A stretch of 39,906 nucleotides of DNA, taken from the IMG/VR virus record IMGVR_UViG_3300022200_000129, positions 1-39,906 of that record. One strand, written 5' to 3'. A program made the position numbers and the translations under genes. Below the pieces are notes generated by a model. That model worked only from the letters and a program-made list of their open reading frames with translations, was not told the DNA's origin and searched no databases. Position 1 is the first letter of the stretch. Each line of letters begins with the position of its first letter. This DNA is from a virus. Positions 1 to 39,906 of this stretch are shown here, piece by piece.

Positions 1-640
1 ACTCCGCAGGCCCGATCCATTTCGAGCCTGTGGAGGTGGTTGAGTTTGTCTTTAGCGTCTAGCCGCATACCATTCGTGCGGTGCGTATTTTTTCTCCTCA
101 CACCATAGGCGATACAGGAGGTTGAAGATTCGCCACCCTCGCTCTATCTCCATCTCCTCCCACACCTTCTCGTAGATCCCACCCTCACTGCCTGGAGTGG
201 TATCAACTGCAATGGAAATGGGGTGAGGTTGACCGTCGATTGCGTAGCTGTAAGCAGCAAGCTGGATGATGTAGGGGTCATACCACTTCGGTGTTGGTTT
301 ACCTGACCTGCTACGTGCCACCTTCGATGACTTCCAATCGAGCACTGCCAACCCGCATGCCTGGTGCTCAACAAGCGCATCAACTCGACCAGCAAATGCG
401 ATCCTATCGGTGATGCATGTCACTGAGTTCTCAGTCCATCGGACCCTGACAATATTCCTGGTGTGGTAATCAGCAATGCCGACCGAATACGGATCTCCCT
501 CTATTGATGGTTTGCCTGCCAGGATGTCTTCAGCCAATGAGTGAATGCGTGTTCCCAGATCCATAGCCTCCTGACTTTTTTCCCTCGCTGCCTTCACAAC
601 CGCAGCAACCTGGTCTTTCCGATCCTGGTATGTGGCCCTG
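1..640. repeat. Left copy of imperfect terminal repeat
   Basis: These 640 bases align without gaps to the last 640 bases of the window at a constant offset of 39266. The first 114 bases are identical. After that I count about 39 substitutions, roughly 94% identity overall. The repeat covers most of the RecB-type nuclease gene and the 5' part of the reading frame after it. Most differences are silent. The pattern fits a contig that has gone round a circular or permuted phage genome and ended in a second strain's allele. A true tandem gene duplication is the less likely alternative. Confidence 0.9.
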
Positions 641-849
641 ACCTCATCAGCCATATCCAGTGCTGTTTCCGCCGCTACATTCTGCATCCAAATTGCGATC
701 CCTGGTTTGTTCATCACTCCCAGGATGGTGGAGGGAGAGGGGAGTAACCCCTCTTCCCTCGCTACCTTTATTCCACAACCGTATGCAGGTGCGCCCTGTG
801 CGGTGTAATAGTGATCACCGTCACTGTTGCCCTGCTTAACGGTTGTCAT
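52..849 (-). CDS. RecB/Cas4-type PD-(D/E)XK nuclease
   Basis: A 265-residue protein with the ordered motifs of the RecB nuclease family: GTRIH at 99-103 with E107, GRVDALV at 154-160 (D157), LDWKSSK at 170-176 (D171, K173), and QLAAY at 196-200. These are the metal ligands, catalytic lysine and Q-x3-Y motif of Cas4/RecB-like exonucleases. The likely role is end resection during phage recombination or replication, in the cytoplasm. The ATG overlaps the stop of the SSB-like gene (ATGA, 846-849), so the two are probably translationally coupled and may act together, as exonuclease and single-strand-binding partners do in phage recombination systems. The exact substrate is not readable from sequence. 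A second, diverged copy starts off the right end of the window. Confidence 0.85.
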   Translation of the reverse strand: MTTVKQGNSDGDHYYTAQGAPAYGCGIKVAREEGLLPSPSTILGVMNKPGIAIWMQNVAAETALDMADEVRATYQDRKDQVAAVVKAAREKSQEAMDLGTRIHSLAEDILAGKPSIEGDPYSVGIADYHTRNIVRVRWTENSVTCITDRIAFAGRVDALVEHQACGLAVLDWKSSKVARSRSGKPTPKWYDPYIIQLAAYSYAIDGQPHPISIAVDTTPGSEGGIYEKVWEEMEIERGWRIFNLLYRLWCEEKKYAPHEWYAARR

Positions 850-5678: not shown

Positions 5679-5718
5679 AAAGTAGTACACTGTGTACACG
5701 ATGTCAAGGGTGTATACC
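5679..5718 (-). promoter_or_regulatory. Integrase-operon promoter with operator
   Basis: Minus-strand -35 TTGACA (5707-5702) and -10 TACTTT (5684-5679) are separated by exactly 17 bases. The spacer holds the hyphenated palindrome GTACAC-T-GTGTAC (5685-5697), which overlaps the perfect GTGTACAC (5692-5699). GGTGTATACC (5709-5718) lies just upstream of the -35. The promoter faces the 38-residue, endolysin and integrase genes, so a repressor bound here would control integration and the endolysin gene together. Confidence 0.65.
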
Positions 5719-5740
5719 TATCTTTTTTTGGGGGGCAAAT

Positions 5741-5804: not shown

Positions 5805-5820
5805 CGGGAAGGGAGGTAAT

Positions 5821-5858
5821 CTTTTAAGTCTTGTGCGTCTGCCAATTTCGCCACACCG
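5821..5858 (-). other. attP: tRNA-Leu 5'-half fragment, candidate attP core
   Basis: Read on the minus strand, 38 bases match the 5' half of a bacterial tRNA-Leu. Most of the acceptor strand, the TGGCGAAATTGGCAGACGC D-arm region and the anticodon arm CACAAGACTTAAAA are all present, with a UAA anticodon. The match ends just after the anticodon loop: the next bases cannot pair with the CAAGA stem and no T-arm follows, so this is not a functional tRNA. Integrases often recombine at tRNA anticodon loops, and the genome encodes one, so an attachment core is the best reading. A decayed phage tRNA gene is the alternative. Confidence 0.75.
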
Positions 5859-5955
5859 ATAAAGAATTTTTTTTGCTGCACTCCACCTGAGTAGACAACG
5901 TCAACTGTTGTAATCATTAGGTTTATGGAAGATGAGTGCGGCATGTCGAACGGAA

Positions 5956-6422: not shown

Positions 6423-6582
6423 TGTCTTCCTTCTTTTTATTAGCCTTCATATGGGCAAAGATCTCCTGAAAGAGCGACCTGCGATCCTCCCTGGACAGTT
6501 TCTGTATGTCCAGTCCAATCTGATTGTCGATCTCTGCGATCTCATCCTCTCGATTGTCGAAGCTCTCTGGCTGCGTCTGCAT
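6412..6582 (-). CDS. Small charged coiled-coil protein (56 aa)
   Basis: 56 residues, highly charged, with a helical core (DEIAEIDNQIGLDIQKL then REDRRSLFQEIFAHM) and a lysine-rich end. Its ATG lies inside the last 41 bases of the giant internal virion protein gene, and it runs 11 bases into the next gene. It could be a small virion or assembly factor, but only position supports that. Confidence 0.5.
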   Translation of the reverse strand: MQTQPESFDNREDEIAEIDNQIGLDIQKLSREDRRSLFQEIFAHMKANKKKEDNED

Positions 6583-9500
6583 AATCCGCTCTTTCTGCTC
6601 GTTTATTGCCTACATTCAAGCCTTTGTACAGGTCTTTCTCCCAGTACCAAAGTACAGCTTGTAGGTCTGCATTGCTAATGTCGATATTCTTTTCTTTCTT
6701 CAGTCTTGCCTGGGCATGAGCCATTGCCTTCCTGATCCAGGCACGTTCGCTGCCATTGGATGGGGCCTGGTTGATATCCTTGAGGTAAATGTGGAGCCTC
6801 TGCGCCCTTTTCTCAAGTTCAGTGCGTCCCTTAAATTTCCGTTTCTCGATAGCCCGATAGGTCGCCTTGAGCCAGTTGTTAAGAATTGGGTAAGCCTTTG
6901 CGCCTTTGAATCCAGGCTTTTGAAAATCTTCAATCAGCTTGTTTAACTGCTTCGCCACTTTGGGACGTAGTTCAGATTTGCCAACCTCTGCCAACTCTTT
7001 TGCCTGACTTAATACCCCTTGAGGTGCATCAACCAGAGTACCCCTGATGCGGTTGATTGTTCGCATGAACCACCTGTCCATTGTGACGCTATCAAAAAGC
7101 TTGTTCAGGTTGCCATAGAATGATCCTATCTTTGGCCCAAACATCATAGACCCTATGACTGTGTGATCCGCCAATTCACCTGTGAGTTTGCCAATGCCCT
7201 TCTTGACTAGATATTTGTTTAGATCTCTGACGCTAATTGATCCTAGCAGAAATTCCCTGGCCTCTTTTAAACCACCAACATCCTGTATCAAGTCGTTCAG
7301 GTTTCTTAGGCCAGCATTGATGGCATCCTTGTTCTGCCCACCCCAGTCAGAATCTGACAATATCTTGCCCGTCTTTTTGTAATGCTCATAGAGGTAGTTG
7401 GCTCGCTTGAAATTGCTCCGCACATCCTGACCGTTAGAGGTGACTGCTATGAACGATTTAAACAGGCTATCCAGCCCAGTATCGTCCTTCAGTTCAGGGT
7501 GCATCTCATAGAGGTAACTCATCGCCTCATCGATCTTGCGATCATACCAACCCACTGCATCAGCATCTTTTGCCAGTGCAGCGGATGCCTCCTCAAATAT
7601 GGTATCACCTAGGCTGCGAGCGTTGCGATCAGTCATAGCCTCAAGCTTGCCCTGCCTGGCGGATCTCTCAGCCAGATAGCTTGCCATTTCATACATCGTT
7701 GGCTTACCTGGCTTAACTGATTCAATCTCTTTGAGGGTAGAGTCAAAGTCCTTGAAGATATCAATAGCAGATCGCTTTAGCACAGGCTCCTGAAACTCTT
7801 TGACCGCACTGTTCACCCTGTTAACTGCTACGTCATAAACCGCCCTCTGTAGCGGAGTCATTTTGCTCAAAATGCCAGGACGATCAGCTTCATTCTCAGG
7901 TCGATTGAATGTGTCGATAATGACCTGTTCATAGTTGTAGCCATTGACCTTATGCTTCTTGATGATGTCTTTAATTTCGGAAATGTTTTTCTTAATATGC
8001 GTCAGCATTTGGTCTCCATAAAATTGGTCGCCAATAAACATTCCTTCGCTAGTCTCTGTGAACCCTGTCAGGAAGGATTCTCCGCTATCATCTTTGAGTT
8101 CTGCCAGATCGTTGAAAAATGCTTTTTTCTGTTCTGCGTTAAGACCAGAAGTTTTGAACAGGATTGCGCCATTCTTTTTGACTTTGCTGCTTTTAATCTC
8201 AGCTTGCGTAGCCTTGCGGACAATGTTTCCACCGTCTTGATCCCAGGCTAATGACAGGGCATCCATAATCTGTTTGCCCTGCGCTACATCCCCCCTGATT
8301 GACAACACAATGTTGGGAGCTACATTAACAGATCCAGCTTCCTTGTATCCTCCCTGACCTGTACGGATGCCAATGATTTGAATGTTTGCTTTGACCGCAG
8401 CCAGTGCAGATTTAAGCTCTTTAAGAAGACCGTCAGCAATAGTTTCAGTCATTGCCGTTGCTCCGATCTTGTCAACTACTGCCTGAATTCTTCTGGCTTC
8501 CTCAGACTTGCCACCAGATACAACCTCGATGGGGATCTCCTGGTCTTTACCTCTGGACCCCTTGAACGAATACAGGCTCCCTGGTGATCTATTGGTCTGC
8601 GCTCCCAGGAATGCACCGAAGGTGACTGTGGTTGGCTGATCGCTGATTGTCAGATTCTGCAACCGATCCAATCGGAATGATTTGATGATGCGGTTCTTGT
8701 CCACCAACTGCTGGAACATGTTTTCATTACTGAGCATCTGATCCTTGCGCTCAAATCCCAGGAAGCGCATCAAGCCATCCCGTTTCTGAGTAACACCAAC
8801 AAGGTCCGCATCAGTGTTGCCTTTGCCACCCAGGGCATCGATGCCAGTTTTGCCTTCGCTCATCCCAGACAGGTAGAGCCACAGATCCTGAAGGAACAAA
8901 CCTCTGACAGGGTTGTTGGCTAATGATATGTCAGTATCCTTGCCCCCTTTGCTGCGATACTCTTCTCGCCACAGGTCGTATATCTTTGCCCTCTCAGTGC
9001 CTTTCTCCGCTCGCTCAAACTGATCAAGGCGAGTCATGATGTCGTTCATGTCCAACCCAGTGACCCTGAAGTTGCGACCATTCTTCGACATCTCAAAAAC
9101 CATAGGCACTAACTGACGGTAAGATGTGATAATGTCAGGCGTGATCTTGCCAGTCTCCTGCACCTGGTTGTACGTGAACTCAATCAGGAACCCTGAGTCC
9201 TGAATGCGGCTACGCATGCGGTTGTTTAGCCTCATGATCACATCCATCAGGTGGGGTGTGAAAACTCGCTTAGAGGTGGCAAGCATTGCGTCTATGGTCG
9301 CCTTGCCGAAGTAGTCCCCCCGATATGCATCGTTCTCCAGTATCTGGAACATTGATAGACCATCGACAGACTCGCCGCTGGTGGCAGTGGTATCCACCGC
9401 TCGCTTTGCCATATCGGCTCGTTCCTGATCTGCCTTCTGCCTTTGCCTCTTGTTCTGAAATTGATACCTGCCGTTGCGAATAATCGGATTGCCATCTTCG

Positions 9501-11815
9501 CCTCTCAGCAGGGGAATGGTTGACTGGAAATGGGACAAGATCTCTCTGCCATCTTTCGAGTTAATTTGGGCAGCGTTCCATTTAGTTCCGATGACATCCC
9601 TGGAGGGATCGTCTACCAGGGAAATGTTCTCCCTGCGCTTTTGAAGCATGTCTGCGATGTTAGAAAAGACTCTGCCATCCTTCAGCAATAGTGGCTCACC
9701 TTCTTTGATCAGGCCCATTGCTCTGCCCATATTTCGGATTGCGTAGAGGCCCATACTGTTTCGGGCTAAAAGCAGGTTGCCTATCAAGCCCCTAGCGGCA
9801 GAGCCTCCCAGACCGTTGTAGAGGTTGCGCTCATACGATCCTCCAATGCGGAATTTGAGGTTGTTGATTTTGCCAGCCCTAATGAAGGACTCTGGATCAA
9901 ACTTCCCAAAAAACTCACGCATCGAGTCAGCGTAGATTTCGTCCCTAGCAATCAGGAATTTGTCTTCATCCTTGATCGCTCGATACTGGGCCTGCATAGC
10001 AGGCTCTAGACTGTTAACGTAGTTTTCGTAGAAAGCATCGATCCACTTTTTGGTCAGCAATCCTTCATTGTTAAACGTTAGGACTTCTTTTCCATTGACC
10101 ATCTTGACAACCCGATCACCGAATAGAAGCTTGTCCTGAGTCATCAAGGCATCCTGAACTTCAGGCATCTTCATGATAGCATGCCCCAACTCATGAGCCA
10201 GGGTAGCCCTGCTAGTGCGGTTCTCGCTTGTGTTAATCAGGATGGTATTTCTGCCCCCAGAGGAGACATAGTTAACACCTACGGTTCCGCTGAAGTTCTC
10301 GCCCCTGACTTCACCATACTTTTTGTATTGCTCGTCATTGAGGAATCGAATGTCCAGGTTGCCTTCTCCAGTTTTAAAATGACCGTTTTTGAATAGGTAG
10401 CTCAGACCAGCGAAGAACTTAGCATCCTCCCGACTTCCACCTGTCCATTCCTCAAAGTTAACAAGGTCTTCTGGTTCCAGTTTGAGCCTGAAATCATCGA
10501 TGAAGTTATCGACCTGTTGAGCCTTCTTCTCTTTTGCGAAAATGATTTCGGAACTGAGTTGTCCCAGGGGACCAAATATTGCGCCACCCGCTATACTGTT
10601 TGCAGCAAACTCTTCATCAAAACTGAGCAGGCCCAGCATCCCACCAGCAGTTGCCCCTTTTGCGACACTCTTGCCGACTTTATATCCAGGTATGAGCAAT
10701 CCTCTGCTTACAGGGTTCCGCCCTAGGGTGGACAAGACATTTGCCATATCCCTGGCCCCAGAGCGCACAGTTGTATCTCTAGCGATGCGATCAAGCACTC
10801 CAGGTAGGTTGACATCTTTGGACTGCCTCTTGATCTCAGAGGCTAATTCCATTGCATCATCGGTAATATTACCAGCGGCAGTCAGTCCCCGTCTTAACCA
10901 TCCAATCTTGCCCTCCTGGGGAAGGTCAACATCGATGGGTTCTCCTGATACCCGTTTGGGCATCTTCGCCTTAACCTGATCGATTGCCTCGCCAGCAAAT
11001 GATGAAGCCTCCCTGGCCAGGTATGCTGCACCCTTAACAGGGGATGTAGCCACTTTTGTAACTGCCCCGAATAAAGCCTCCTGCATCTGACCAGTCTTGA
11101 TTGCAGTATTGATCAAGCCCCTGCTGACGAGTGAAGTAGCTTGCCCTTTTGCCGCCGCTTTTGCTGCCGTCTTGAAAGCAGTGGTAGTTCCGAATCCTAC
11201 CACCGCAGTTGGATCAGCAAACATGCTCAAGCCTTCAGCAAGTTTGGTATCAACCAGGGCTGATGGCAGGTAGCTGTAGGACTCATCGCCCATCATCTGC
11301 TTTGCCCTGTGCTGCTCAATTGTCCTACGTTGCCTGAAGTATCCCCTGGCAAAGGCTTTCATCGGTTCAGGCAGATCGTGATATTGCCTGCTGGCTTCCC
11401 CTGGTAGGGCCTTGAAGCCCATTGCACCAACACCACCCCCGACACGCATCAAAAGGTCTCCTGTGTCCGATCCTGCACGCAACAAAGCCTCCAGGGCAGT
11501 GCCTGGTAGCTTGTGCATATCAGTCTTCGGAACCTGGTTGATCGTCTCCTTAATCTGGTTGACGATCTCACCAAAGGCCCCAGGTAGAGCCTGGAGCATC
11601 TCCATCGGATTAAATCCATCAGCTAGATCCTGGGAGATGTATTGGTCAATCTCTTCGTCGGTTGGATCGTAGAAGATATCCCTGTCGATAGGGGATAGCC
11701 CAGTGTCTATGTTGCCTGGGTCATCAACTGAATCTCCTTTTGCATTGTAGATCCCAGTGAAGACTGCGCCTCTAGGATTAAGCCATATAGATGACTTGTC
11801 GGTTTGGGCTGGCAT
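6542..11815 (-). CDS. Giant internal virion (ejection) protein with zinc-protease motif
   Basis: 1757 residues, the largest gene in the window. Around residue 541 is TLAHELGHAIMK, the HExxH zinc-binding motif of metallopeptidases (H541, E542, H545). The rest is mainly helical and charged, with an alanine/glycine-rich hydrophobic segment near 375-420 (LLSFDEEFAANSIAGGAIFG). It follows two other internal-virion-like genes (281 and 774 residues) after the fibre genes, matching the place of the ejection proteins of T7-like phages, whose largest member also carries an enzymatic domain. The inferred role is to enter the cell envelope ahead of the DNA, with the peptidase cutting a host or phage protein. 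Homology to a named family cannot be claimed by eye. Confidence 0.7.
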   Translation of the reverse strand: MPAQTDKSSIWLNPRGAVFTGIYNAKGDSVDDPGNIDTGLSPIDRDIFYDPTDEEIDQYISQDLADGFNPMEMLQALPGAFGEIVNQIKETINQVPKTDMHKLPGTALEALLRAGSDTGDLLMRVGGGVGAMGFKALPGEASRQYHDLPEPMKAFARGYFRQRRTIEQHRAKQMMGDESYSYLPSALVDTKLAEGLSMFADPTAVVGFGTTTAFKTAAKAAAKGQATSLVSRGLINTAIKTGQMQEALFGAVTKVATSPVKGAAYLAREASSFAGEAIDQVKAKMPKRVSGEPIDVDLPQEGKIGWLRRGLTAAGNITDDAMELASEIKRQSKDVNLPGVLDRIARDTTVRSGARDMANVLSTLGRNPVSRGLLIPGYKVGKSVAKGATAGGMLGLLSFDEEFAANSIAGGAIFGPLGQLSSEIIFAKEKKAQQVDNFIDDFRLKLEPEDLVNFEEWTGGSREDAKFFAGLSYLFKNGHFKTGEGNLDIRFLNDEQYKKYGEVRGENFSGTVGVNYVSSGGRNTILINTSENRTSRATLAHELGHAIMKMPEVQDALMTQDKLLFGDRVVKMVNGKEVLTFNNEGLLTKKWIDAFYENYVNSLEPAMQAQYRAIKDEDKFLIARDEIYADSMREFFGKFDPESFIRAGKINNLKFRIGGSYERNLYNGLGGSAARGLIGNLLLARNSMGLYAIRNMGRAMGLIKEGEPLLLKDGRVFSNIADMLQKRRENISLVDDPSRDVIGTKWNAAQINSKDGREILSHFQSTIPLLRGEDGNPIIRNGRYQFQNKRQRQKADQERADMAKRAVDTTATSGESVDGLSMFQILENDAYRGDYFGKATIDAMLATSKRVFTPHLMDVIMRLNNRMRSRIQDSGFLIEFTYNQVQETGKITPDIITSYRQLVPMVFEMSKNGRNFRVTGLDMNDIMTRLDQFERAEKGTERAKIYDLWREEYRSKGGKDTDISLANNPVRGLFLQDLWLYLSGMSEGKTGIDALGGKGNTDADLVGVTQKRDGLMRFLGFERKDQMLSNENMFQQLVDKNRIIKSFRLDRLQNLTISDQPTTVTFGAFLGAQTNRSPGSLYSFKGSRGKDQEIPIEVVSGGKSEEARRIQAVVDKIGATAMTETIADGLLKELKSALAAVKANIQIIGIRTGQGGYKEAGSVNVAPNIVLSIRGDVAQGKQIMDALSLAWDQDGGNIVRKATQAEIKSSKVKKNGAILFKTSGLNAEQKKAFFNDLAELKDDSGESFLTGFTETSEGMFIGDQFYGDQMLTHIKKNISEIKDIIKKHKVNGYNYEQVIIDTFNRPENEADRPGILSKMTPLQRAVYDVAVNRVNSAVKEFQEPVLKRSAIDIFKDFDSTLKEIESVKPGKPTMYEMASYLAERSARQGKLEAMTDRNARSLGDTIFEEASAALAKDADAVGWYDRKIDEAMSYLYEMHPELKDDTGLDSLFKSFIAVTSNGQDVRSNFKRANYLYEHYKKTGKILSDSDWGGQNKDAINAGLRNLNDLIQDVGGLKEAREFLLGSISVRDLNKYLVKKGIGKLTGELADHTVIGSMMFGPKIGSFYGNLNKLFDSVTMDRWFMRTINRIRGTLVDAPQGVLSQAKELAEVGKSELRPKVAKQLNKLIEDFQKPGFKGAKAYPILNNWLKATYRAIEKRKFKGRTELEKRAQRLHIYLKDINQAPSNGSERAWIRKAMAHAQARLKKEKNIDISNADLQAVLWYWEKDLYKGLNVGNKRAERADYADAARELRQSRG

Positions 11816-35122: not shown

Positions 35123-35538
35123 TTCACCCTGGGCTGGCTCTTGCGCCACTGCGGAGGTGGGATGGCGATGGCAATATAATTGCCCCCCATTTGCTTGTAG
35201 GTGATAGGGCAGCGATTGCCCCAGATATTGGGCCGATACAGGCTGGAATCTCTGACCCTGACTATGATCTCGTTATCGACCTCGACTATCTTTTTGTTCC
35301 GAAACTGCCAGTGGGTGACAGTTCCAGTCAGTTCCTCACTCGCCAGGGTTTCAGGGCGATAGCGTTCTGGGAAAAAGTGCCTCTTAATTTTTTCCTGGCC
35401 AGGTAGAGTGATCAGAACCTTTCGGTGACGACCTCTCACGAAGTCCTCACCTTCAACTAGAATCTCATCTCTGAGTTCTTTAACCGTACGTCGATCCAAC
35501 CCCAGGTTGGCTGAAAGTTCTCGCTCGTCTATAGGCAT
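35119..35538 (-). CDS. Hypothetical HTH-containing protein
   Basis: 139 residues from the ATG at 35538; TTG one codon earlier is unlikely. The N-terminal region (ERELSANLGLDRRTVKELRD) reads like an HTH that recognises DNA. The centre is basic and the end is proline-rich (IAIAIPPPQWRKSQPR). Its start overlaps the kinase gene by 59 bases and its end overlaps the GIY-YIG gene by four. Possible roles are small terminase or transcription regulator, but neither is certain. Confidence 0.6.
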   Translation of the reverse strand: MPIDERELSANLGLDRRTVKELRDEILVEGEDFVRGRHRKVLITLPGQEKIKRHFFPERYRPETLASEELTGTVTHWQFRNKKIVEVDNEIIVRVRDSSLYRPNIWGNRCPITYKQMGGNYIAIAIPPPQWRKSQPRVK

Positions 35539-36052
35539 CAATCATCTCTCCTACTGCTGGTTTCAGGTCGTCTAACTCCCCATTGTTCCGAATCACATAG
35601 TCGAAATCATAAAAATCCAGATCAGTCTCAGATGGGTGGTCTGCTGTTTTCTGGCACATACAGAAACCTGGCCGATCAACCCTGACCATATAGCCTCCGA
35701 TGTCCTGAATCAGTTCAGCCTCATTCTCAAATCTGACATCGGTAACAATTGCCCAACCCGATTTCGATGGGTCAGTCAATTGGTCCCTCATTTTGTCAAT
35801 CCAATAGGTCTGCCCGAATAACTGCCTTCTGTATTCCGTTCCCCACCATTGGAGGATGGGCCTAAATAACTGCTTCCGCTGGTCAACGTATTTGACGCTC
35901 AGATTAAGGACAGAAGCCACCTCTGCCTTCACCTCATCCCCAAAGGCAAAACGCTTTATACGGTCACCTCGCAACAATTCGGTGCATATTCGGTAGACCT
36001 CATCCTTCCCACTTCCCATCTTGCCGCTGAGACCGATAACCGATAGACCCAT
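35480..36052 (-). CDS. Deoxynucleoside monophosphate kinase
   Basis: 190 residues. The P-loop is GLSGKMGSGK (7-16). WWGTEYRRQLFG and VTDVRFENEAELI are typical of phage dNMP kinases (T4 gene 1 type). It phosphorylates deoxynucleoside monophosphates to diphosphates for replication in the cytoplasm. It is the only nucleotide-metabolism enzyme recognised here. Upstream lie two operator-like sites and a candidate promoter, so its unit may be under the RHH switch. Confidence 0.85.
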   Translation of the reverse strand: MGLSVIGLSGKMGSGKDEVYRICTELLRGDRIKRFAFGDEVKAEVASVLNLSVKYVDQRKQLFRPILQWWGTEYRRQLFGQTYWIDKMRDQLTDPSKSGWAIVTDVRFENEAELIQDIGGYMVRVDRPGFCMCQKTADHPSETDLDFYDFDYVIRNNGELDDLKPAVGEMIDAYRRARTFSQPGVGSTYG

Positions 36053-36062
36053 AGATTAGTGT

Positions 36063-36091
36063 AATCTGGTGTAAACACACCATTGAGTCAA
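36063..36091 (-). promoter_or_regulatory. Candidate promoter with operator before dNMP kinase
   Basis: -35-like TTGACT (36091-36086) lies 17 bases before a weak -10-like CAGATT (36068-36063). The spacer contains the inverted repeat GGTGT-N4-ACACC (36068-36081). The arrangement copies the promoters at 2805 and 5707, with the operator in the spacer. The -10 is poor, so activity is uncertain. Confidence 0.45.
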
Positions 36092-36128
36092 TTCTCGTCA
36101 TATTAAGGATTGATAATTAAGGGAGGTG

Positions 36129-36138
36129 GGTATACACC
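36129..36138. promoter_or_regulatory. Operator-like GGTATACACC site
   Basis: Reverse complement is GGTGTATACC, the same word as at 5709-5718. It lies in the only sizeable gap between the 99-residue gene and the kinase, just downstream of the -10-like element of the plus-strand RNA. Confidence 0.5.
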
Positions 36139-36170
36139 AAAGATGTCTTGTTCATATGCTGACTGGTGCA

Positions 36171-36202
36171 ACCCTGGGGAGAGATCCTCAGGGTCTTTTT
36201 TT
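36171..36202 (+). terminator. Plus-strand rho-independent terminator
   Basis: A 10-base stem (ACCCTGGGGA with TCCTCAGGGT, one G-T wobble) closed by a GAGA tetraloop is followed by C and seven T. On the minus strand the same hairpin has no T tract. The A/T run is also coding (Lys-Lys) for the end of the minus-strand 99-residue gene, so part of the match could be chance. Confidence 0.7.
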
Positions 36203-36487
36203 CGCTTCACGCATTTGGTCCAGCCAATCATACATAGCCCAGGTCTCCATCTTGCCGCCGAATATGGGGTCAGGTGCGACCTCGCCTATTTTGGGAATAT
36301 GCTCTTTGACGCAAGCTTTGGTGAACCTTTTGTCCCGCCACACTGCATCTCCATAGTGAGGGTCGCAGGCGACTCGCATCACAGGCTCACAGTAGTGGTC
36401 AGGGAAATATGCCTCAGTGTCCAGCCTGAGTGGATGTAGGCCCGACTGAAGGCGTGAGTGATAGGTTTGTAGGGTATTGGTCTTCAT
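36188..36487 (-). CDS. Hypothetical protein (99 aa)
   Basis: 99 residues (MKTNTLQTYHSRLQSGLHPL) with several H, C, D and W residues (YFPDHYCEPVMRVACDPHYG) that might bind metal. It is preceded by a 112-base gap with no gene (36488-36599). Its 3' end lies over the plus-strand terminator, so it is the natural target if an antisense RNA is made. No family is recognised. Confidence 0.7.
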   Translation of the reverse strand: MKTNTLQTYHSRLQSGLHPLRLDTEAYFPDHYCEPVMRVACDPHYGDAVWRDKRFTKACVKEHIPKIGEVAPDPIFGGKMETWAMYDWLDQMREAKKRP

Positions 36488-36599: not shown

Positions 36600-37196
36600 T
36601 TAATCTGGATCGACCTGTGCAGAATCTGTGCAGTCCTGGGCAGAAACATCAATAATGCTGGGGTTTTTGGGTTTATCTGCGAGATCAATTGTCTGAGCAG
36701 AGGGCAGGGAGGCTAGGTAATCATCCATTCGCCTGCGGAAATCCTCCTCAGAATCGACCCTGCGGTGCTCAATCACTGTTTTCTCCCCGTCGAGGTCTCT
36801 CTTTTTGTCCGTTAAGATACCGATAGAAATGGATTTCTTATCTGGGCTGAGTTTCCCTGAGAGCAGATCCTGGTGCAGACTGTCAGCCATATCACTGATG
36901 ATCTCGCCCAGTTTATTGCTAGTCCGTTGTTTCCAGTCTGGGATGTGATCCTTGATGGTAGCCTTGATGGTTTGAACTGTAGAATTGGCCACAGAATGCG
37001 TCAGAGCCACCGTTATGATGCTCTTGCCATCGATTAGATCCTGGCATACCTGGTTGTATTGCTCATCGGTCAACCTGCTTCCTATGCCCTTCTCAGGTTT
37101 CTTGAACTGTGGTCTATGATCTCCGCCTTCTACCTCGTTTGCCAGGGGGACGATGGTGTTCTTCAATGTAGGATTTGAGTCGTTCTGCGGCTTCAA
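36600..37196 (-). CDS. HTH DNA-binding protein
   Basis: 198 residues. The middle region (LTDEQYNQVCQDLIDGKSII then VALTHSVANSTVQTIKATIK) reads like a homeodomain-type HTH, as found in phage replication and small-terminase proteins. The rest is charged and helical (KRDLDGEKTVIEHRRVDSEE). Its start overlaps the 79-residue gene, so it is in the early operon, downstream of the replication initiator. It may be a regulator or a terminase small subunit acting at a distance. Confidence 0.65.
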   Translation of the reverse strand: MKPQNDSNPTLKNTIVPLANEVEGGDHRPQFKKPEKGIGSRLTDEQYNQVCQDLIDGKSIITVALTHSVANSTVQTIKATIKDHIPDWKQRTSNKLGEIISDMADSLHQDLLSGKLSPDKKSISIGILTDKKRDLDGEKTVIEHRRVDSEEDFRRRMDDYLASLPSAQTIDLADKPKNPSIIDVSAQDCTDSAQVDPD

Positions 37197-39201: not shown

Positions 39202-39334
39202 TTTTAAACCCGTAGCAAAGTTCCATAATCAGATCGTCCAGCTTTTGCTGGCGATCCTCATCCCACACTCCGCAGGCCCGATCCATTTCGAGCCTGTGGA
39301 GGTGGTTGAGTTTGTCTTTAGCGTCTAGCCGCAT
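39047..39334 (-). CDS. Candidate small gene overlapping the nuclease end
   Basis: 95 residues from the ATG at 39334, inside the end of the nuclease gene. The first 45 (MRLDAKDKLNHLHRLEMD, then RQQKLDDLIMELCYGF) look like a real helical protein. The rest lies over the 146-residue gene and looks like out-of-frame sequence. Either the true product is short or it continues into the other frame. Only the N-terminal portion is supported. Confidence 0.35.
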   Translation of the reverse strand: MRLDAKDKLNHLHRLEMDRACGVWDEDRQQKLDDLIMELCYGFKNEDLRVRGGQEESEACDGTGGEIIQLEPGGTEHAIHCRLGSIQEGEQCRSA

Positions 39335-39906
39335 ACCATTCGTGCGGTGCGTATTTTTTCTCCTCACACCATAGGCGATATAGGAGGTTGAAGATTCGCC
39401 ACCCTCGCTCTATCTCCATCTGTTCCCATATTTTCTCATAGATTCCACCCTCGCTGCCTGGAGTAGTATCGATTGCAATGGAGATGGGTTGAGGTTGACC
39501 GTCGATTGCGTAGCTGTAAGCAGCAAGCTGGATGATGTAGGGGTCATACCATTTGGGTGTTGGTTTACCCGTCCTACTTCGTGCCACCTTCGATGACTTC
39601 CAATCGAGCACTGCCAACCCGCATGCCTGGTGCTCAACAAGCGCATCAACCCTTCCAGCAAATGCGATCTTATCGGTTATGCATGTCACTGAGTTCTCAG
39701 TCCATCGCACCCTGACAATGTTCCTGGTGTGGTAATCAGCAATCCCGACCGAATATGGATCTCCCTCAATCGCTGGTTTGTCTGCCAGGATGTCTTCAGC
39801 CAATGAGTGGATGCGTGTTCCCAGATCCATAGCCTCCTGACCTTTTTCCCTCGCTGCCTTCACGACCGCAGCAACCTGATCCTTCCGATCCTGGTATGTG
39901 GCCCTT
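39267..39906. repeat. Right copy of imperfect terminal repeat
   Basis: Diverged second copy of the first 640 bases of the window. Substitutions begin at the equivalent of base 115 and are scattered to the end. They change only about eight residues of the encoded nuclease segment, so both copies look like functional alleles under purifying selection rather than sequencing noise. Confidence 0.9.
39318..39906 (-). CDS. RecB-type nuclease, second allele, 5'-truncated by contig end
   Basis: The same gene as 52-849, cut at the end of the window before its start codon, so 195 of 265 residues remain. All motifs are kept (GTRIH, GRVDALV, LDWKSSK, QLAAY). It has about eight substitutions compared with the left copy (for example S to G, R to K, E to Q), all mild. 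It is the other end of the circle or a strain variant, rather than an independent gene. Confidence 0.85.
   Translation of the reverse strand, partial: RATYQDRKDQVAAVVKAAREKGQEAMDLGTRIHSLAEDILADKPAIEGDPYSVGIADYHTRNIVRVRWTENSVTCITDKIAFAGRVDALVEHQACGLAVLDWKSSKVARSRTGKPTPKWYDPYIIQLAAYSYAIDGQPQPISIAIDTTPGSEGGIYEKIWEQMEIERGWRIFNLLYRLWCEEKKYAPHEWYAARR

Follow-up and report, generated by a model that had tools for sequence, protein, structure and literature searches.

Gene organization of the window

The analysed window was a virus record of 39,906 bases, and all of its convincing protein genes were located on the minus strand, as the preliminary description of this DNA had claimed. In minus-strand order, the replication genes were followed by an open reading frame (ORF) of 99 amino acids, a gap of 135 bp, a deoxynucleoside monophosphate kinase gene, three small genes and the gene of the large terminase, the kinase being the first gene of the kinase-terminase block. 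The features on both sides of the gap were as follows:

35480-36052, minus strand: deoxynucleoside monophosphate kinase (phrog_139, E = 2e-42; Pfam DNMK, E = 3e-13)
36053-36170: stretch of 118 bp between the kinase ATG and the hairpin, source of a putative short plus-strand RNA (gap lengths compared in four genomes)
36171-36202, plus strand: intrinsic terminator in antisense orientation, with a 10-bp stem, a GAGA loop and the tail CTTTTTTT
36188-36487, minus strand: 99-aa ORF of no family, restricted to near-identical contigs from this one population
36600-37196, minus strand: clade-conserved 198-aa protein, closing the conserved replication block ahead of a variable cargo slot

The 99-aa protein had no match in the phage collection or the family libraries. 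No sense terminator was found ahead of the kinase. A plus-strand gene ending at the terminator was also considered and rejected, as none was found in the window.

One exonuclease gene occurred at both ends of the window (52-849 and 39318-39863) in versions that were 95% alike, and the siblings L012 and L013 read across the junction of these ends. The record therefore probably represents a circularly permuted genome whose ends, from two strains, overlap imperfectly.

Structure of the plus-strand terminator

The terminator reported in the preliminary description was confirmed at 36171-36202 of the plus strand, with a 10-base stem, a GAGA tetraloop and a seven-T tail. The hairpin ACCCTGGGGA-GAGA-TCCTCAGGGT occupied positions 36171-36194 and was followed by CTTTTTTT. 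Six of the ten pairs were G-C and one was G.U in the plus-strand RNA. The folding energy of the hairpin alone was -17.4 kcal/mol for the plus-strand RNA and -12.6 kcal/mol for the minus-strand RNA, the former being more stable because the G.U pair of the plus strand corresponded to A.C on the minus strand.

When a strict definition of a terminator was applied (at least 8 pairs, at least 5 G-C pairs and at least 6 T of 8), this was the sole plus-strand site in the 39,906 bases. The plus strand of 12 dinucleotide shuffles yielded 0-2 such sites per shuffle, therefore the hairpin by itself proved little and was not beyond chance. The window contained no match to Rfam families at the gathering score.

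Conservation of the terminator upstream of the kinase gene

Clade members with the same gene order were found by a terminase search. The gap was covered by three lineages (the window; L018; L021 together with L022 and L025), the only independent ones found across the viral collection, and L021 and L025 agreed throughout the gap stretch. The kinases of the relatives were 44-51% identical to that of the window, and the gene order was the same. The near-identical contigs L001-L004 showed zero changes in the gap or the hairpin, so they were uninformative.

An antisense-facing terminator was located just upstream of the kinase in the window, L018, L021 and L022, at distances of 118, 85, 122 and 122 bp from the kinase ATG, respectively. 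The U-run was on the antisense side in all four genomes, and none of them had a T-run on the sense side. A G+C-rich stem-loop directly preceded the U-run in the window, L018 and L022, and in L021 it did so with one mismatch. In L022 (38.9 kb, complete-length) this hairpin was the only perfect-stem antisense site, while in L021 (35.9 kb, complete-length) the mismatched hairpin was the only antisense site. The antisense RNA folded better than the sense RNA in three of the four genomes, including L018 (-24.0 vs -13.8 kcal/mol) and L022 (-23.3 vs -20.2 kcal/mol); the exception was L021, which had an A.C mismatch on the antisense strand (-18.3 kcal/mol antisense vs -21.3 kcal/mol sense). The hairpin sequences were not alignable between lineages; it was the position and the polarity that were conserved, independently of the sequence of the neighbouring gene.

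The background was estimated in more distant relatives, where 13 antisense sites were counted in 496 kb, i.e. about one per 38 kb or about 0.5% per 200 bp. The probability of a terminator occurring by chance in both other lineages was estimated to be of the order of 1e-4, with the mismatch allowed for. Against such a background, the recurrence at the kinase boundary was therefore not considered to be due to chance.

The 99-aa ORF was absent from L018, L021 and L022, in which 1.5-2.5 kb of other genes separated the 198-aa protein from the kinase. Since the upstream gene differed in each lineage while the terminator stayed, the conserved partner of the terminator was the kinase side. A stretch of 52 nt adjoining the hairpin was identical in L021 and L022, whereas the neighbouring sequence was 85-94% identical; a short reading frame may account for this identity.

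Outside the clade, the more distant terminase relatives had no kinase and no such terminator at the corresponding boundary, and kinase relatives did not have the gene order in common. A DNA search of the phage collection gave no match, and no close isolate of the clade was present in that collection. When the 139-aa neighbour protein was used to search a collection of bacterial and archaeal genomes, one weak partial match was returned, in which the gene order was not common either. Scans with the replication protein and with DNA patterns returned known clade members only.

A directional motif and the probable sense promoter

A motif of 13-14 bp was found in the gap and elsewhere in the window:

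36068-36081, minus strand: motif GGTGTGTTTACACC, between the -35-like box of the kinase promoter and the kinase ATG
36086-36091, minus strand: TTGACT, -35-like box of the kinase-operon sense promoter, with the motif 4 nt downstream
36125-36138, minus strand: another motif copy within the gap, reading GGTGTATACCCACC in the gene sense
2181, 2777, 4660, 5653, 5709, 36068, 36125 and 37290: positions of the motif (GGTGTAnnnCACC and variants) in the window, the motif being also present in L018, L021 and L022

The exact form GGTGTAnnnCACC was on the gene-sense strand at all 11 of its sites in these three relatives. Motif copies were mostly just ahead of start codons and several times directly after a sense terminator. 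A TTGAC box was located no more than 15 nt upstream at 7 of the 30 motif sites, where about 0.3 would be expected, and no such box was on the antisense side; as L021 and L022 are close, these seven sites amounted to about five independent ones. At the kinase start of the window, L021 and L022, the motif copy had TTGACT or TTGACG 4-5 nt upstream. The copy at 5709-5722 of the window was reversed, and the 14-bp version of the window was more symmetric. From this distribution, the motif appears to mark the starts of transcription units in the clade and is best read as part of sense promoters.

In the preliminary description, the copy at 36125-36138 was an operator word close to where a plus-strand RNA would begin. 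The word was indeed present at that place. However, the gap is common to the sense promoter and the putative RNA, so the vicinity of the motif to the RNA 5' end was no evidence for control of the RNA, and the proposed control did not agree with a directional motif accompanied by TTGAC on the sense side only. A symmetric operator of the antisense RNA was rejected in part, as the exact form was gene-sense only.

Candidate antisense promoters

Two promoter-like elements on the plus strand were considered:

36112-36117, plus strand: GATAAT, a weak -10 element proposed in the preliminary description, with no -35 element at 16-18 bp
36110-36138, plus strand: TTGATA, 17 bp, TACACC, the best antisense promoter-like match and a speculative one, its score being exceeded at 0.2% of positions

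The position of GATAAT was correct, and transcription from about 36124 would yield the 79-nt RNA that had been proposed, but its assignment as a promoter was not upheld. The hexamers 16-18 bp away matched TTGACA at 0-2 of 6 positions, no promoter was returned at GATAAT by a promoter scan, and this element was not among the eight best matrix candidates. The relatives had TTGnnn at the place matching TTGATA, but with weak scores. With the sigma-70 matrix that was used, no antisense promoter candidate was common to the relatives in both sequence and position, but the host may have another promoter type. A promoter of its own, as in RNAs of the OOP type, was represented in the window by weak sigma-70 matrix candidates only, with no match in the promoter scan.

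The hairpin as a proposed boundary terminator

The conserved position and polarity of the hairpin imply that some plus-strand RNA would end at it. We proposed that the hairpin is a boundary (insulator) terminator ending antisense RNA from the kinase promoter region, a reading to which we assigned an even chance of being correct. Leftover or deliberate plus-strand transcription would start in or just inside the kinase promoter region, and a polymerase leaving the kinase-terminase promoter, or antisense transcription coming out of the kinase gene, would be stopped after about 60-150 nt. Such a stop would keep antisense RNA and polymerase collisions off the upstream replication operon. Since the sense side lacks a T-run, sense polymerases would pass the hairpin unhindered, and so the replication operon could still read into the kinase. 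The hairpin, its polarity, its constant position and the missing sense-side T-run were observed, whereas we infer the antisense transcription, its start point and the barrier function.

Near-symmetric bacterial promoters commonly fire both ways (PMC10268837), and near-symmetric words in the gap could likewise fire divergently and give a short antisense RNA; unlike in those promoters, the motif found here was directional in its distribution, and divergent firing is only putative. In phage lambda, the timm terminator stops transcription from pM and pE (PMC5869508). The hairpin resembles timm in acting, as proposed, against transcription into a neighbouring unit near operators and promoters. It differs in that timm stops a known lysogenic transcript, while the transcript stopped here is putative.

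A possible dedicated regulatory antisense RNA

Alternatively, the terminator may belong to an antisense RNA of about 60-120 nt that is dedicated to regulation, similar to lambda OOP, a reading that we regarded as possible but doubtful. The OOP RNA is 77 nt long (PMC12197685); it is transcribed from pO and overlaps cII by 52 nt (PMC5869508). P22 Sar, of 68/69 nt, pairs with ant mRNA and interferes with its translation initiation (PMC12197685). As in the pO-tO arrangement, a short putative RNA lies here opposite a one-way operon, its terminator is near the 3' end of the upstream gene and it adjoins the replication genes. The conserved position and polarity of the terminator are consistent with such an RNA, as are the 52 nt of identity in L021 and L022 and the presence of TTGATA-17-TACACC in the window with TTGnnn at the matching place in the relatives. 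In addition, the RNA would be fully complementary to the read-through mRNA, because no sense terminator precedes the kinase.

In contrast to OOP, whose promoter is known and whose overlap with cII is 52 nt, the promoter candidates here were weak: GATAAT had no -35 element, and the candidates of the relatives included no common strong site. The body of the RNA was not recognisably conserved between lineages, and the overlap with the upstream gene was 15 nt in the window, about 60 nt in L018 and none in L021 and L022. The RNA would overlap the 3' end of the 99-aa gene, as the preliminary description had it, but antisense control of this gene was not supported: the 15 nt consisted mostly of the terminator arm and tail, and the gene was absent outside the population while the terminator was kept. 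The upstream gene of the window is not a known regulator, has no family and is not conserved, so the window lacked the extensive overlap with a regulator gene's 3' end that characterizes OOP. No regulator gene lay opposite the RNA, and the suggested role in the lysis-lysogeny decision was not supported. Sar is likewise similar as a small RNA opposite a phage operon, but no start region is opposite the putative RNA here, except possibly the kinase leader. Thus, the interpretation as an OOP or Sar counterpart was partly supported: the antisense-facing terminator was conserved, while the promoter, the operator control, the control of the 99-aa gene and the decision role were not sustained.

If an RNA of this kind exists, it might pair with the read-through mRNA at the junction of the 99-aa gene and the kinase and mark it for RNase III, separating early and late messages; this mode of action, proposed by analogy, was held to be similarly doubtful. 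A more general version, in which a small antisense RNA conserved in the clade would be made beyond the regulated kinase-terminase promoter, pair with the read-through mRNA and time the switch from replication to packaging, whatever the upstream cargo gene, appeared unlikely.

The kinase side, the promoter words and the terminator were constant while the overlapped gene was variable, therefore the boundary terminator was favoured over an OOP-like regulator, and boundary formation is most likely the main job of the hairpin. A pure barrier leaves the 52-nt identity of L021 and L022 unaccounted for, although a small ORF there could explain it.

Remaining explanations

The hairpin might instead serve the sense mRNA where the upstream operon ends, by stabilising the 3' end or by being a site of processing, with the T-run incidental to Lys/Arg codons; this was considered quite improbable. 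All four hairpins could fold on the sense strand too, and the A-run was within coding sequence in the window and L018; the chance of AAA AAA AGA for Lys-Lys-Arg from codon usage was only 4.5%. However, the U-tract was antisense in all four genomes, even in L021 and L022 where it was non-coding apart from contact with a stop codon, and sense folding was much weaker in the window and L018.

A chance hairpin without function, which the shuffled plus strand (0-2 such sites per 40 kb) would allow, was very unlikely given that such a hairpin recurred in three lineages, each time at this boundary and with this polarity, when the background was about one site per 38 kb. Programmed ribosomal frameshifting at AAAAAAA, stimulated by the hairpin and giving a longer form of the 99-aa protein, was rejected as scarcely credible: seven A are immediately followed by a stem-loop on the coding strand, but they are read in frame as AAA AAA A and not as X XXY YYZ, the ORF stops before the hairpin in L021 and L022, the L018 frame runs straight through, the arrangement is not conserved, and the extended frame has no known relative.

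Significance of the boundary

An antisense terminator whose position is conserved within an uncultivated phage clade is a finding of an ordinary kind, useful in that it tells where an antisense 3' end is to be expected. Phage antisense transcription has usually been found by RNA-seq in cultured systems, whereas here it is predicted from comparative anatomy alone. A directional promoter motif that would mark transcription units stands alongside the predicted 3' end, and together with it provides testable coordinates for the replication-to-packaging boundary in a temperate-looking phage group.

Other features of the genomes

A terminator before the RusA-like operon (1218-1242 in L022 and the matching place in L021) was T-rich on both sides, with the flanks TGTTTTTTTA (sense) and TTTGTTTT (antisense), and may work in both directions. 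The cargo slots of L018 (7606-8061) and L021 (6081-6374) encoded DnaA C-terminal-domain proteins (Pfam Bac_DnaA_C), which were not encoded in the window.

A protein of 1757 aa (6542-11815 of the window, minus strand) had a weak metallo-protease match at about residues 519-552 (phrog_87, E = 5e-4) and is probably a virion protein. The minus strand at 5815-5870 contained a stretch similar to the 5' part of tRNA-Leu (GTGGCGAAATTGGCAGACGCACAAGACTTAAAA), with the integrase side of the genome on one flank and its tail end on the other. No complete tRNA was found there by ARAGORN, and the stretch is possibly an attachment site. A Shine-Dalgarno-like word was located ahead of just 5 of the 36 start codons of the window, which suggests that the host rarely uses Shine-Dalgarno sequences.
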